NCBI RefSeq assembly: GCF_014697375.1
Contig: NZ_JACJRS010000026.1
Location: forward strand, 1 to 62,703
Direction: 5' to 3'
From: Phormidium sp. FACHB-1136
Lineage (GTDB): Bacteria > Cyanobacteriota > Cyanobacteriia > Phormidesmidales > Phormidesmidaceae
DNA: 62,703 nucleotides
Shown here piece after piece: positions 1 to 40,202 of this stretch. The notes beneath the pieces were generated by a model, which saw only the letters and a program-made list of their open reading frames with translations, ran no database searches and had not been told where the DNA came from. Position numbers and translations under genes: made by a program. Position 1 is the stretch's first letter, and every line of letters begins with the position of its first letter.

Positions 1-213
1 CAGCTTCACACTCAATTGGGGCAAGATTAAAAACCACTGCAAGTTTCGTTTGCGACTCGAATACTGAATCGGTTGGGGAAAGACACTGGCCAACACCGAC
101 AGCTTTACCTGGCGATGGACTTGTAACAAACATAACAACAGTTGCAGCGTCAAATACTGCTGGGTATTGAGATGAGCTTGGAGGGTCGTTTGGTAGAATG
201 TAGGTAATATCAT
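1..213 (-). CDS. IS4-family transposase, N-terminal 71 residues (partial)
   Basis: Read on the minus strand from ATG at 211-213, this frame is open to the window edge and gives 71 residues starting MILPTFYQTT. That start, the leucine-rich helix that follows and the later segment FPQPIQYSSRKRNLQWFL are characteristic of cyanobacterial IS4-family transposases. The catalytic DDE region would lie outside the window, so intactness cannot be judged. A shorter, broken copy of the same start lies at 11420-11536. The family is recognised from memory of its N-terminal pattern; the IS subgroup is not assigned. Confidence 0.75.
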   Translation of the reverse strand, partial: MILPTFYQTTLQAHLNTQQYLTLQLLLCLLQVHRQVKLSVLASVFPQPIQYSSRKRNLQWFLILPQLSVKL

Positions 214-313
214 TTGCTTAGGGGGGCTGCCAAAGCCCCCTATTTTTTCGTCCCTGACATTCTCTCAAAGCCTTGTCCAGATTGACATTGAACTCCCTTG
301 TCACCCGCTAAGG
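1..313 (-). mobile_element. IS4-like element, 5' end (runs off the window)
   Basis: The stretch holds the terminal region and the first part of an IS4-like element whose transposase reads leftward out of the window. The same terminal sequence recurs in opposite orientation at 11322-11536. The two copies align from the shared tip (reading CCTTAGCGGGTGAC on the minus strand) through the untranslated leader into the transposase. On the plus strand, 221-246 forms a G/C-rich hairpin followed by a T run, as in terminators that insulate an IS end. The tip at 313 abuts a headless IS256-type transposase, so this element probably inserted into that older one. No target duplication can be judged because the far end is outside. 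Confidence 0.8.
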
Positions 314-1355
314 AGTCGTTCAGAGCTTAGCCCTCTGTCCAGTTTGAGGGATCCACTTCAGTTGTACCTCAAAGGGGTGTCCAGTGGGGACTTTAGTGAG
401 GCGCTGTCATCGCTGTTGGGCGAAGCACCGAAAGGACTCTCTCCGGCCACCATCGGTCGGTTGAAAGCAAAATGGAGTGAGGAACATCGGTCATGGCAGC
501 AGCGGTCATTACAGCAACAGCGCTATGTCCATATTTGGGCCGACGGCATCTACTTCACCACCCGGGCCGATGAACGGCAGTGCCTGTTGGTCATCCTGGG
601 GATGACAGACAAGGGCCATAAGGAACTGCTGGGCCTGGAGATGGGGTATCGAGAATCGGAGTTGAGTTGGAAAGCCTTACTGCTGCGGCTCAAAGACCAG
701 GGGCTCGACCAGGCTCCCCGCCTCGCCATTGGCGATGGGGCGTTGGGCTTCTGGAAGGCCCTGCCCCAGGTGTTTCCCACCACGAAGGCACAGCGCTGCT
801 GGGTGCATAAGACCGCCAATGTGCTCAACAAACTCCCCAAACGGCAGCAACCGGAGGCGAAACAAGCCCTCTGGGAGATTTATCGAGCCGACAACAAGAC
901 CGAGGCCAATCAGGCGTTCCATCGGTTCATTCAGACCTACCAGGCCAAGTATCCGGAGGCCACCCAGGGTCTGGCCAAAGACCGGGATGTCTTGGTCACC
1001 TTCTCAGACCTACCAGGCCAAGTATCCGGAGGCCACCCAGGGTCTGGCCAAAGACCGGGATGTCTTGGTCACCTTCTTCGATTTCCCCGCTGAGCATTGG
1101 GCCCATCTTCGCACCACCCATCCCATTGAATTCACCTTTGCCACCGTCCGCCTCAGAACCGACCAAACCCGGGGCTGTGTCTCCAAGGACACCCTCCTGG
1201 CCCTGGTCTTCAATCTGGTGGAGAGGGCTCAGAAAAGCTGGCTCAGAATTCGAGGCTTCAAACACCTCGCGGACGTGATTGAAGGCATTCCGTTCAAGGA
1301 TGGATACCGGACTGATGACAACACCGATGTGACCCAGATGCAGGACGCCGCCTAG
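314..1355 (+). pseudogene. IS256-family (mutator type) transposase, truncated and frameshifted
   Basis: This is a DDE transposase of the IS256/mutator family. Motifs include LYLKGVSSGDFSEAL near the start, the first acidic site in WADGIYF, the second in LAIGDGALGFWKAL and the C-terminal TTHPIEFTFATVRLRT with the catalytic Glu. The N-terminal ~100 residues are missing, since the frame begins at the tip of the IS4-like element at 313. The reading frame is then broken by a perfect 73-bp tandem duplication (931-1003 and 1004-1076). 73 is not a multiple of three, so the C-terminal part from about 1077 is in another frame. Removing one copy restores the expected VTFFDFPAEHW continuity. It is therefore doubly inactivated, and the duplication looks recent because both copies are identical. 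Confidence 0.88.
931..1076. repeat. Perfect 73-bp tandem duplication inside the IS256-type transposase
   Basis: Positions 931-1003 and 1004-1076 are identical, head to tail. Each begins with TCAGACCTACCAGG and ends with GTCACCTTC. The period of 73 shifts the reading frame and inactivates the transposase. Confidence 0.97.
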
Positions 1356-11104: not shown

Positions 11105-11321
11105 CACCTCACATACTCCCAAATCATCGAACGGGGACATTAACCTGATCTAAGCCAATCAGCAAAGTCCTTGGTTGCGCTCGGCCCCACCACAACCTAT
11201 GAAAGACCGATGCTGCATAGGCTACGCTGCGCTAGTTCATCCTACCTTTACTTCCGGGAAAGGGCTAGGGTAGGGCTTTTGAGGATTAGCCTAGCAAGGT
11301 GATCAAGTTTTGCCCGCCAAT

Positions 11322-11536
11322 CCTTAGCGGGTGACAAGGGAGTTCAATGTGAATCTGGACAAGGCTTTGAGAGAATGGCAGGGACAAAAAATAGGTAGCT
11401 TTGACAGCCCCCTAAGTAAATGATATTACCTACATTCTACCAAACTACCCTTCAGGCTCATCTCAAAACCCAGCAGTATTTGACGCTGCAACTGTTGTTA
11501 GGTTTGCTACAAGTTCATCGCCAGGTAAAACGGTAG
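11322..11536 (+). mobile_element. IS4-like 5' remnant, inverted copy of 1-313
   Basis: Reading rightward, this stretch begins with the same tip as the element at 1-313 (TCCTTAGCGGGTGAC), followed by the shared leader and a 38-codon frame from ATG 11420 (MILPTFYQTTLQAHLK...) that ends at TAG 11534-11536. The product matches the first ~37 residues of the left copy with few changes. Homology stops there and the tRNA-Ser gene begins 45 bp later, so all of the catalytic part is gone. Together with 1-313 it forms an inverted pair with both IS tips facing inward across 11 kb. Confidence 0.82.
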
Positions 11537-11580: not shown

Positions 11581-11667
11581 CGGAGAGGGAGGGATTCGAA
11601 CCCTCGTTAGGTTTGACCCTAAAACAGATTTCGAGTCTGCCGCATTCAACCACTCTGCCACCTCTCC
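11581..11667 (-). tRNA. tRNA-Ser (anticodon CGA)
   Basis: The 87-nt minus-strand sequence starts GGAGAGGTGGCAGAGTGG and ends CCTCTCC plus discriminator G. The acceptor arms GGAGAGG/CCTCTCC pair perfectly. The anticodon arm GCAGA-CTCGAAA-TCTGT gives anticodon CGA, a long variable arm typical of class II tRNAs follows, and the T-arm contains GGTTCGAATCC. CCA is not encoded. The gene sits between an IS4-like remnant and a ParM/ParR-like pair, a setting in which tRNA genes often serve as integration sites. Confidence 0.96.
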
Positions 11668-11687
11668 TGGTGGTGAGTGATATTTTA

Positions 11688-11742
11688 CCCTCTGATTAGG
11701 TCTTTCCGGCGGAAATTCTGTGGGGAAATTCCGATCAGAGGG
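11688..11742. other. Inverted repeat (9-bp stem, 37-nt spacer) upstream of tRNA-Ser
   Basis: CCCTCTGAT at 11688-11696 pairs with ATCAGAGGG at 11734-11742. The interior contains a second potential pairing (TTTCCGGCGGAAA). It lies between the tRNA-Ser gene and the end of the ParR-like gene, both transcribed leftward. It could act as a terminator-like or processing structure or be the trace of a mobile element. There is no clear T tract. Confidence 0.5.
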
Positions 11743-11797
11743 CGTTGTACTCCCTGGGCTTCTTGATTTTGGTGGCCTGAATTCTCTAGAACCAGCG

Positions 11798-12139
11798 CTA
11801 GAGAGCCAGCAGTTGGTCTAGGGCATCTAGAGCCTCGCAGGGGGGAGAGGAGGCCGAGGTGGTGGGCAGATCGCCGTAGGCGGGAACGGCTTGGCCGTAG
11901 TGGGTTTGGCCGTAGGTTGCGCCCCCCTCAGCTAGAGAGCGTGATGACCAGGGGGACGGGCTGGGACGGCCATGGAGGTAGTCGTCGCAGTATTTGCGAA
12001 AGACAGCTTCCACGGCGGCACGGGCATTTTTGAGACCCCATTCGGCGGCGATGCGTTCGGCTTTTTCCAGCACATCGGGGCTGAGTCGGACTTTGTTGTC
12101 TGCCCTGCTGGGGACGGTTTCACGGGTGACGTTGGCCAT
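11798..12139 (-). CDS. Putative ParR-like ribbon-helix-helix partner protein
   Basis: A 113-residue protein directly downstream of the ParM-like gene with a 2-bp gap, so almost certainly cotranscribed. Residues 15-52 (NKVRLSPDVLEKAERIAAEW, then KNARAAVEAVFRKY) have the strand plus two-helix pattern of ribbon-helix-helix DNA-binding proteins such as ParR. The remainder (about 58-113) is Ser/Pro/Gly-rich and ends in an acidic/hydrophobic patch, CEALDALDQLLAL, which could be the filament-binding tail. The assignment rests on domain pattern and position, since ParR proteins diverge strongly. A non-segregation role for the pair is possible. Confidence 0.6.
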   Translation of the reverse strand: MANVTRETVPSRADNKVRLSPDVLEKAERIAAEWGLKNARAAVEAVFRKYCDDYLHGRPSPSPWSSRSLAEGGATYGQTHYGQAVPAYGDLPTTSASSPPCEALDALDQLLAL

Positions 12140-12141
12140 GG

Positions 12142-13194
12142 CTAGACCTCCCCGGCGGTGAGTAACAGGCCGCGCACGTTGGCAAATTGGGGGTCGCCCA
12201 TAACGGCAAAGAGGGGGTGCCCCTGAAGCCGATCCGCGATCAGGTGGGAGCCGCCGCCCGTGACCAAAAAGCGAGTGACGCGGGGCATGTAGGGGGTGTA
12301 TTGGGCCTTCACGGTTTGGAAGATGCCCTTAAACCAGGGGTCGAGGTATTCGTCGAGCCAGTCGGCCCAGGAGAGGTCGGTGTCGGCGTAGGTGTGATCG
12401 ACCCGGAAGCCATCCATGACAATGCAGGGGTCGGCGCTGCTGCCCAGGGTATCGGTGAGGCGGCGATCAAAGCTGATGGCGACGGCCAGTTCGTAGGTGC
12501 CGCCCCGGTCTAGGATGTTTTCGTCGATGACCTCACTATCGGCATCCACCAAGCGGGTAAGCCAGGTGCCACCGCCAATGTCGATGACGATGGTATAGCC
12601 GTTGTCGGGAATGACGCCCTGGGCCTTGGCGTAGTAGTAGGCTCCCATGCCCTCGCGCTCTACGGTGACGCTTTCGACGATGACCCGGAAATCTAAGCCA
12701 TTGCGGGTAAATTCGTGCAACCCCAGGAGTTCGCCCTGGATGGCTTCTCCATTGCGCAGGGGGTCGGGGGTAGACACGATCAGATGGAGTCCGTACTCCG
12801 TGACGCCACCCGCCAGAGGCTCTAGGCAGGCATAGAGATGTAGGCGGGTGAGATCCACTTTGTTTTCAATCACCGTTTGCTGCTGGCGACGGTACTTATA
12901 GGACTGGGCACCAAAGTGGTAGCGGCGACCGTCGGGCAATTCAATCAACGGTGAGGCGTTGGAATAGCTGACGGCATCGCGCCCCTGGGGGAGCTGGTAG
13001 CGCACGGATCGAATGGCTTTGGGATGGCTGTGGCCATTGCAGAACTTGAGATCGTAGTTCCCGGCATCCAAGGCGAGGATGGGCGTGGTGGCCGAGGGCT
13101 GGACGGTGCGGGTTTTGGTCGCGGCCTTTTGGGCAGTGGTGGAGCGACCGTTGGTGGCGGCAGGGGCAAGGGTGGTCGAAACGGAGGTAGTCAT
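12142..13194 (-). CDS. ParM/StbA-like actin-fold ATPase
   Basis: A 350-residue actin-like protein. ATG 13194 is preferred to 13248 because the upstream 18 residues are low-complexity. Core motifs are phosphate-1 ILALDAGNYDLKFCNG (about 42-57), a central IVIDIGGGTWLTRLVD (about 224-239, phosphate-2) and the adenosine motif FLVTGGGSHLIADRL (about 313-327). ParM-type proteins polymerise with ATP and push DNA molecules apart when capped by ParR bound to a centromere. Here the RHH gene follows immediately. No clear centromere iterons are visible in the short upstream region 13195-13300. Chromosomal actin-like/RHH pairs in cyanobacteria are not well characterised, and a plasmid origin is possible. 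Confidence 0.78.
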   Translation of the reverse strand: MTTSVSTTLAPAATNGRSTTAQKAATKTRTVQPSATTPILALDAGNYDLKFCNGHSHPKAIRSVRYQLPQGRDAVSYSNASPLIELPDGRRYHFGAQSYKYRRQQQTVIENKVDLTRLHLYACLEPLAGGVTEYGLHLIVSTPDPLRNGEAIQGELLGLHEFTRNGLDFRVIVESVTVEREGMGAYYYAKAQGVIPDNGYTIVIDIGGGTWLTRLVDADSEVIDENILDRGGTYELAVAISFDRRLTDTLGSSADPCIVMDGFRVDHTYADTDLSWADWLDEYLDPWFKGIFQTVKAQYTPYMPRVTRFLVTGGGSHLIADRLQGHPLFAVMGDPQFANVRGLLLTAGEV

Positions 13195-13300
13195 AGGGCT
13201 TGGATAGTGGGACGACAGGGGAGGGGACGGCTGTCCCCACGAGTACACCTGAATTAATTTAGTTGATTTGTACTATTCTGGCAAGCCCCCAGACGACCAT

Positions 13301-34071: not shown

Positions 34072-34347
34072 GGTCACCAACACTCGATTCGACAATCTTG
34101 GTTAAGCCGTGGCAGATGGGTATATGTGCTCAACCAAAACCCGCTCTTCAATGTAAAGGTTTACGTTTCGTCATAACTCACCGTTAAGCATCTCTTCAGG
34201 TTTAGGCGGGCCTTCCCCGCTTACCGAAACCTCACCCCATGGCCAAGCCAGCCCCTGATCGGAATTTTTCTGGCATTTTTTTCAAACTTGTCCGGAAGCT
34301 ATTCAGCCCCTCCGTATTAGAGAAGAGTAGATGCACCCTGATTGTTG

Positions 34348-34385
34348 AACCCTGGGATACCTGGAGGGATCCCAGGGTTTTTCTT
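34348..34385 (+). terminator. Strong rho-independent terminator without an assigned gene
   Basis: AACCCTGGGA and TCCCAGGGTT form a perfect 10-bp stem with a 13-nt loop, followed directly by a T run. It lies in the ~450-bp divergent spacer between the pentapeptide gene (minus) and the TPR gene (plus). No recognised plus-strand gene precedes it, which hints at an unannotated short transcript or an attenuated leader for the TPR gene. Confidence 0.72.
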
Positions 34386-39928: not shown

Positions 39929-40202
39929 AATCGCCTCTCCTTAGTGGAATATGAAGGGATAAACAGAGGCGCGTTCCTTCGAGCTAAGCTCTACTTCCGT
40001 CTCCAAAGGTCGATCACGATAGCGGCAACTAAATTTGGAGATGAACGTTATTTCTGTATGTATTGTTACCGTTTACGCTGGATTTGTCAAACTCAATGTC
40101 AGCAAACACTCACTAAGCCGATGCCCCACTCCCTCGACACCTGAAACCCTATCCGTTGGTAGCGTCTTGGGCTGTCTTGGGCTATCAACGGGCGCTTCAC
40201 CC

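Follow-up and report, generated by a model that had tools for sequence, protein, structure and literature searches.

Does a gene pair resembling a type II plasmid segregation module, found beside a tRNA-Ser gene in Phormidium sp. FACHB-1136, mark a plasmid that became integrated, or does it belong to a chromosomal filament system serving another purpose? Both readings were left standing by the original prediction, which was made from the DNA alone. We followed them up in the window, by which we mean the whole analysed stretch of 62.7 kb from a genome of 5.98 Mb, and in related genomes.

An actin-like ATPase and its small partner

On the minus strand, the gene for an actin-like ATPase stands 2 bp ahead of a gene encoding 113 amino acids, beyond which comes tRNA-Ser(CGA). 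The coordinates of the open reading frames (Table 1) bear out the two genes 2 bp apart that had been described at the outset. The ATPase frame runs from an ATG at 13194 to a stop at 12142; an alternative GTG start at 13248 is open too, but lies within the operator. A single copy of the ATPase gene was found in the genome.

Table 1 Features of the locus in window coordinates (adaptor parts in residues).
Feature	Position	Strand	Remarks
ParM-like actin-type ATPase gene, 350 aa	12142..13194	-	Sequence, profile and fold matches; 53 relatives
ParR-like adaptor gene	11798..12139	-	Directly downstream of the ATPase gene in 53/53 loci
Adaptor, RHH-type domain	residues 14-55		Followed by a variable linker
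Adaptor, C-terminal helix	residues 101-113		C[ED]A[LI]..LD.LL
Putative promoter/operator	13223..13284	-	Upstream of the ATPase gene
TTGCCA	13284-13279	-	Putative promoter; 17 bp spacer to TAAATT
TAAATT	13261-13256	-	Putative promoter
GTAC boxes	13273-13270 and 13246-13243	-	
Dyad GGGGAC-N4-GTCCCC	13238-13223	-	
tRNA-Ser(CGA)	11581..11667	-	Intact
~210-bp repeat	11321..11529		IS-associated; the genome has three nearly complete copies

The ATPase matches phrog_691, annotated as a "partition protein", at 2e-19, and its sequence matches among solved structures are Ta0583 and pSK41 ParM; the Pfam ALP_N match is under the family cut-off. The predicted model (pLDDT 79) finds its best structural match in CorM (Z 27.4, rmsd 3.0, 290 residues), with further matches to Ta0583 (Z 26.7), Alp7A (26.0), Dh-cParM1 (25.2) and R1 ParM (22.7), and with the C. 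botulinum ParM also among the best. Residues D43, G45, D205, G207, T210, G313 and G314 are invariant across 15 diverse sequences, and we take them to be nucleotide-site motifs. The protein is a ParM-type actin ATPase with a fold assigned by prediction, the AlphaFold models having been built on alignments of few and similar sequences (45 and 38 rows).

The small partner had been read as a ribbon-helix-helix (RHH) protein, an assignment that is supported, but not proven. Pattern and conservation speak for it, and so do the predicted helices, two of which are positioned as in an RHH domain, with a further helix at the C-terminus, in a model of mean pLDDT 64. The fold matches are weak, all with Z < 5; they are headed by a plant TCP-domain factor (Z 4.6), and two RHH proteins follow closely, CopG with Z 3.9 (43 residues, rmsd 2.2) and NikR with Z 3.7. 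A Pfam search with the adaptor gave no convincing family match. Mean pairwise identity is 85% in the RHH-like domain and 76% in the C-terminal helix, with 18% in the linker (a figure resting on the 457 pairs of 990 that could be compared) and 79% in the ParM core for comparison. The putative DNA-contact strand, DNK[VI]RLS, reaches 92%, and a 43% relative terminates in MALDDVL. In R1 ParR, the front half is a DNA-binding domain and the C-terminal part binds the ParM filament. By analogy with that protein, we infer that the C-terminal helix of the window adaptor would be the ParM-binding part, and that its front half would read DNA.

Inheritance and chromosomal place

One scan of genome records yielded 53 loci, 63-81% identical, with both genes together in every one of them. 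Named carriers are mostly Leptolyngbya, Nodosilinea, Stenomitos, Myxacorys, Phormidesmis and similar genera, which are presumably filamentous in habit; several carriers are cyanobacterial metagenome-assembled genomes (MAGs) that have no genus assigned, and a single MAG bears the label Cyanothece. The ATPase is present in 21 of the 26 genomes of the window's genus and in 29 of the 63 genomes of an order-level set, where the adaptor occurs in the identical 29 (cut-offs of E < 1e-199 for the ATPase and E < 1e-30 for the adaptor). ATPase distances track those of LexA (Mantel r 0.948, p 0.0001; 17 of 18 genomes, one LexA not being parsed), and in two genomes the contigs that bear the pair measure 6.10 Mb and 5.53 Mb. 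Since the pair is co-conserved, diverges in step with LexA and sits on multi-megabase contigs, it is an old, vertically kept chromosomal unit, found away from the plasmid location that is usual for type II ParMRC. The pair is a chromosomal ParMR conserved within a lineage.

Two observations concern individual carriers. At loci L144 and L150 (genomes G418 and G417), a single in-frame TGA lies within the match to the window-type ATPase. Leptolyngbya sp. FACHB-36 encodes a second ParM (L032:2970-3980, minus strand), 26% identical and accompanied by a small partner of its own; it lies some 2 kb upstream of the conserved genes and in the opposite orientation.

The surroundings of the pair bear on whether it could be the relic of a plasmid or other element integrated at the tRNA-Ser gene, a reading that we consider very improbable. 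The adjoining tRNA-Ser(CGA) gene is indeed there and intact, and what had been called an IS remnant is partly recognizable as such: approximately 210 bp of the repeat recur at window positions 104-314 (93%), next to a broken transposase-like ORF, and another contig carries a third copy (92%). An IS-linked repeat thus lies beside the pair, and a tRNA gene lies within ~260 bp of it in 14 of the 53 loci, some of them with short flanks; the contexts number four (Ser, Thr, Val and Arg). This is a frequency that looks above chance, though judged without a computed null. The duplicated tRNA 3' end for which a search had been proposed was, however, not found in the genome: the last 26 bases of the tRNA, with up to three mismatches, gave three matches, all of them intact tRNA-Ser genes with no spare 3' end. 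In three of the four contexts (Ser, Thr and Val), the tRNA has its 5' end towards the pair, an arrangement that does not fit integration into a tRNA 3' end. The gene neighbourhood is weakly conserved, with neighbours changing between genera while the pair stays. A tblastn search of plasmids with the adaptor gave no match at E 0.01, and neither phages nor a viral scan gave an ATPase relative. Carriage by phages or viruses was rejected as well, since the phage search gave no relative of the ATPase and the 75 pattern matches of the viral scan, which used two short peptide patterns only, encode none.

Recent plasmid integration is therefore refuted, as the original prediction had anticipated for a pair conserved across the lineage: conservation and vertical inheritance contradict it, and no duplicated tRNA end accompanies the pair. 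A plasmid trace is right as deep ancestry only, because a plasmid carries the nearest ParM that we found outside the family. The alternative of a chromosomal filament system of other purpose holds as regards place, given the large contigs and the vertical inheritance; its support extends to place and stops short of purpose. The tRNA-Ser(CGA) gene is probably an incidental neighbour.

The broken transposase-like gene occupies window positions 344-1355, where two overlapping frames both hold QTYQAKYPEATQGLAKDRDVLVTF; this suggests a short tandem duplication shifting the frame. Its IS256 type was assigned by eye only.

Relation to CorMR/FcmBC and other ParMR systems

Chromosomal ParMs are a kind already known. 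The available text of PMC12645912 presents FcmBC of Nostoc punctiforme as a chromosomal, ParM-derived pair that shapes cells, and that of PMC12270681 places chromosome-encoded cParMs in Desulfitobacterium and Clostridium; these two papers were the only relevant matches of our literature search. The pair in the window is a further family. From the ubiquity and gene order of FcmB, as given in the available text of PMC12645912, we infer that it is the same protein as CorM. The comparison family (f7) contains Nostoc; an ALP_N protein above the cut-off was present in each of the 40 genomes of this family that were examined, and one such protein matches PDB 9rmi, the CorM of Anabaena 7120, at 1.5e-212.

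CorMR/FcmBC and the window pair have much in common, both being chromosomal, ParM-derived and cyanobacterial, with an actin gene followed by a small adaptor and a close fold. They differ in that CorM forms a separate clade, its partner is unlike in sequence, and the GTAC pair described below is absent upstream in 30 of 30 cases. CorMR/FcmBC is further characterised by membrane-bound filaments and a rod shape that is lost on deletion. Orthology of the window ATPase to FcmB/CorM was rejected on profile, tree and genome-distribution evidence. The window-family profile meets CorM at E 0.06, and profile-profile comparison with the CorM type gives 54.6% probability, E 1.2e-4 and 23% identity, which amounts to remote kinship. 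In the tree, 18 window-type rows form one group (94/98) that is sister to the ParM of plasmid pMIC7113.05 (96/91) and far from CorM (100/100), although long branches make the deep joins unsure. Across a phylum set of 386 genomes, the CorM type is strong in 61 and the window type in 6, with zero overlap; in the order set of 63, 8 genomes hold both types, 21 the window type only, 9 CorM only, and 25 neither at these strengths. Mutual exclusion of the two types was dropped, since the 8 genomes holding both stand against the zero overlap in the phylum set. No CorM-type gene was found in the window's genome. The adaptor is without the features of the CorM-type partner (MFQWSKK at the N-terminus, DP.I.RL...DDF at the C-terminus), and the CorM-type partner gave no match at a useful E-value when compared with solved CorR. 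Judged by these comparisons of sequence, the window pair is not the CorM/FcmB cell-shape system.

One genome, G436, holds a CorM-type gene as fragments only (C108:63447-64086) and keeps the window-type pair; it is counted among the 21.

A second recruitment into a cortical or cell-shape cytoskeleton like FcmBC/CorMR, with the RHH domain used only for autoregulation or for another ligand, would be a possible, if tentative, explanation. Although the ATPase is not orthologous to CorM and the adaptor has no MFQWSKK-type N-terminus, CorM is tied with Ta0583 as top fold match by Z, and the pair is chromosomal and vertically kept in genus-named carriers that are mostly Leptolyngbya-type. A full-length CorM match is missing from 21 of the 29 order carriers, including the window's genome and counting the fragments of G436. 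Against this explanation stand the 8 of 63 genomes in which both systems occur together and the near invariance of the adaptor's putative DNA-contact strand.

Nearest to the window family stands the system of plasmid pMIC7113.05 from Allocoleopsis franciscana PCC 7113, which has the same gene order and a sister ParM that is 50% identical. Its adaptor has the C-terminal motif in common with that of the window, ending in DDATNALDALLSA vs CEALDALDQLLAL; the front halves differ despite 50% identity between the two ParMs. The system is also plasmid-borne, and a different perfect 13-bp dyad lies upstream, with the GTAC pair absent. The cParMs of Desulfitobacterium and Clostridium share the chromosomal location of a ParMR and the fold of Dh-cParM1, but belong to another phylum and are remote in sequence (E 0.21). 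R1 ParMRC likewise shares the fold; R1-type plasmids have a centromere of many iterons, whereas the pair described here is chromosomal with a short upstream array. The pair represents a second chromosomal ParMR family of cyanobacteria, which its adaptor most likely autoregulates. If this is true, cyanobacteria would have domesticated plasmid ParMR on two or more occasions, one giving CorMR and another the present family, which retains a DNA-binding-type adaptor, and the label "ParM" in cyanobacterial genomes would cover at least two chromosomal families.

Upstream GTAC boxes and the possible role of the pair

The DNA upstream of the ATPase gene was compared in 50 loci, that is, the 53 minus four (two without an anchor and two short of upstream DNA) plus the window. 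AGTACA is present in 43 of them (shuffle maximum 26), TATAGTAC in 21 (maximum 8) and TGGGGACAA in 20 (maximum 5). GTAC paired with G[AT][AT]C at a spacing of exactly 8 bp occurs in 42 of 50 loci (Markov mean 1.25), compared with 3 of 227 regions preceding other long ORFs of the same loci, 0 of 30 CorM and 0 of 25 plasmid-type loci, the window-family regions ending at a conserved codon within the gene and the control regions at the start codon. With a 10-bp spacing, the pair is seen in 16 of 50 loci, and in 1/227, 0/30 and 1/25 of the respective controls. The 8-bp pair is also present in 25 of the 29 loci of the order set, which overlaps the first set. All of these counts come from related loci and are not independent, though the flanks differ between genera.

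Two operator layouts can be distinguished. The short layout overlaps a TATAGT-like -10 box; in the long layout, two GTACs are separated by 27-31 bp. The full long layout, from AGTAC-N4-GAAC to GTTC-N4-GTACT and then a third dyad, is found in a few loci (L019 and L029) and is partial in the rest. A promoter of the form TTG[CT]CA-17 bp-TANNNT surrounds the long layout in 18 of 50 loci and a TTGACA-type promoter is found at the short one in 6 of 50, both counted without a shuffled control. In the window the layout is the long one, but the 8-bp partners of its GTAC boxes are degenerate, and it is not one of the 42 loci; a genome-wide search for its exact operator pattern, the only form searched, gave a single site. 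One relative has, at its operator (L029:5813-5849), a perfect inverted repeat of 16 bp, AGTACACCCGAACTAT / ATAGTTCGGGTGTACT.

ParR proteins habitually bind their own upstream DNA. Given that habit and the position of the boxes, we favour the adaptor as their binder, while covariation does not prove it. In a 43% relative whose RHH domain is similar, the spacing between two GTACs is 6 bp, not 8, and a 34% relative has a single GTAC, which leaves a link between boxes and RHH domain weakly supported.

A competing explanation, less likely but live, would make the pair a LexA-controlled, stress-linked actin module, the GTAC palindrome being a LexA box. Cyanobacterial LexA boxes are given as RGTACNNNDGTWCB and AGTACWNWTGTACT in the available text of PMC3091678. 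The former is present on either strand upstream of the ATPase in 18 of 50 loci, many short-type operators fit it, and other long-layout loci carry GGTACAACCGTTC, which resembles the box of the lexA gene (GGTAC-N4-GTTC in 16 of 18 carriers). The long-layout pairs GTAC-N4-GAAC and GTTC-N4-GTAC, however, have their half-sites in the wrong orientation for LexA, and no LexA-like match was found upstream of the ATPase in the window. LexA control may operate in some lineages.

The explanation to which we give moderate credence is that Leptolyngbya-type cyanobacteria carry a ParMR module which was domesticated on the chromosome and is distinct from CorMR/FcmBC, and the adaptor of which would bind both its own promoter and the filament. 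This reading draws on the two-gene unit, its vertical inheritance and chromosomal place, the RHH-like domain, the C-terminal helix and the GTAC boxes, together with the predicted ParM fold. Weighing against it are the degenerate partners in the window's operator, the single genomic site of that operator's exact pattern where R1-type centromeres have many iterons, the fit of many short-type operators to the LexA box, the relatedness of the loci counted, and an RHH fold drawn from a model of mean pLDDT 64 and weak matches. The ATPase would polymerise, the C-terminal helix of the adaptor would dock on the filament, and the RHH domain would bind the GTAC boxes of its own promoter and repress the operon; the same binding would tie the filament to its chromosomal site. 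Such a module could work like ParMRC, with the chromosome copy that carries it as cargo, or DNA binding could serve for feedback only while the filament does something else. The cellular job may accordingly be chromosome positioning, shape or feedback only. A true chromosomal ParMRC, in which the GTAC array would act as the single centromere of each polyploid chromosome copy and ParM filaments would position or separate the copies, seems unlikely; it would imply actin-based DNA segregation beside, or in place of, CorM. If the domestication reading holds, the pair would allow one to test directly if chromosomes can be moved by an actin filament encoded on them, and would offer a natural comparison for how a DNA-segregation motor turns into something else.

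Elsewhere in the window, a glutamine riboswitch aptamer (39968-40049) and a match to the NsiR1 sRNA (34325-34385) were both detected above the Rfam gathering score.
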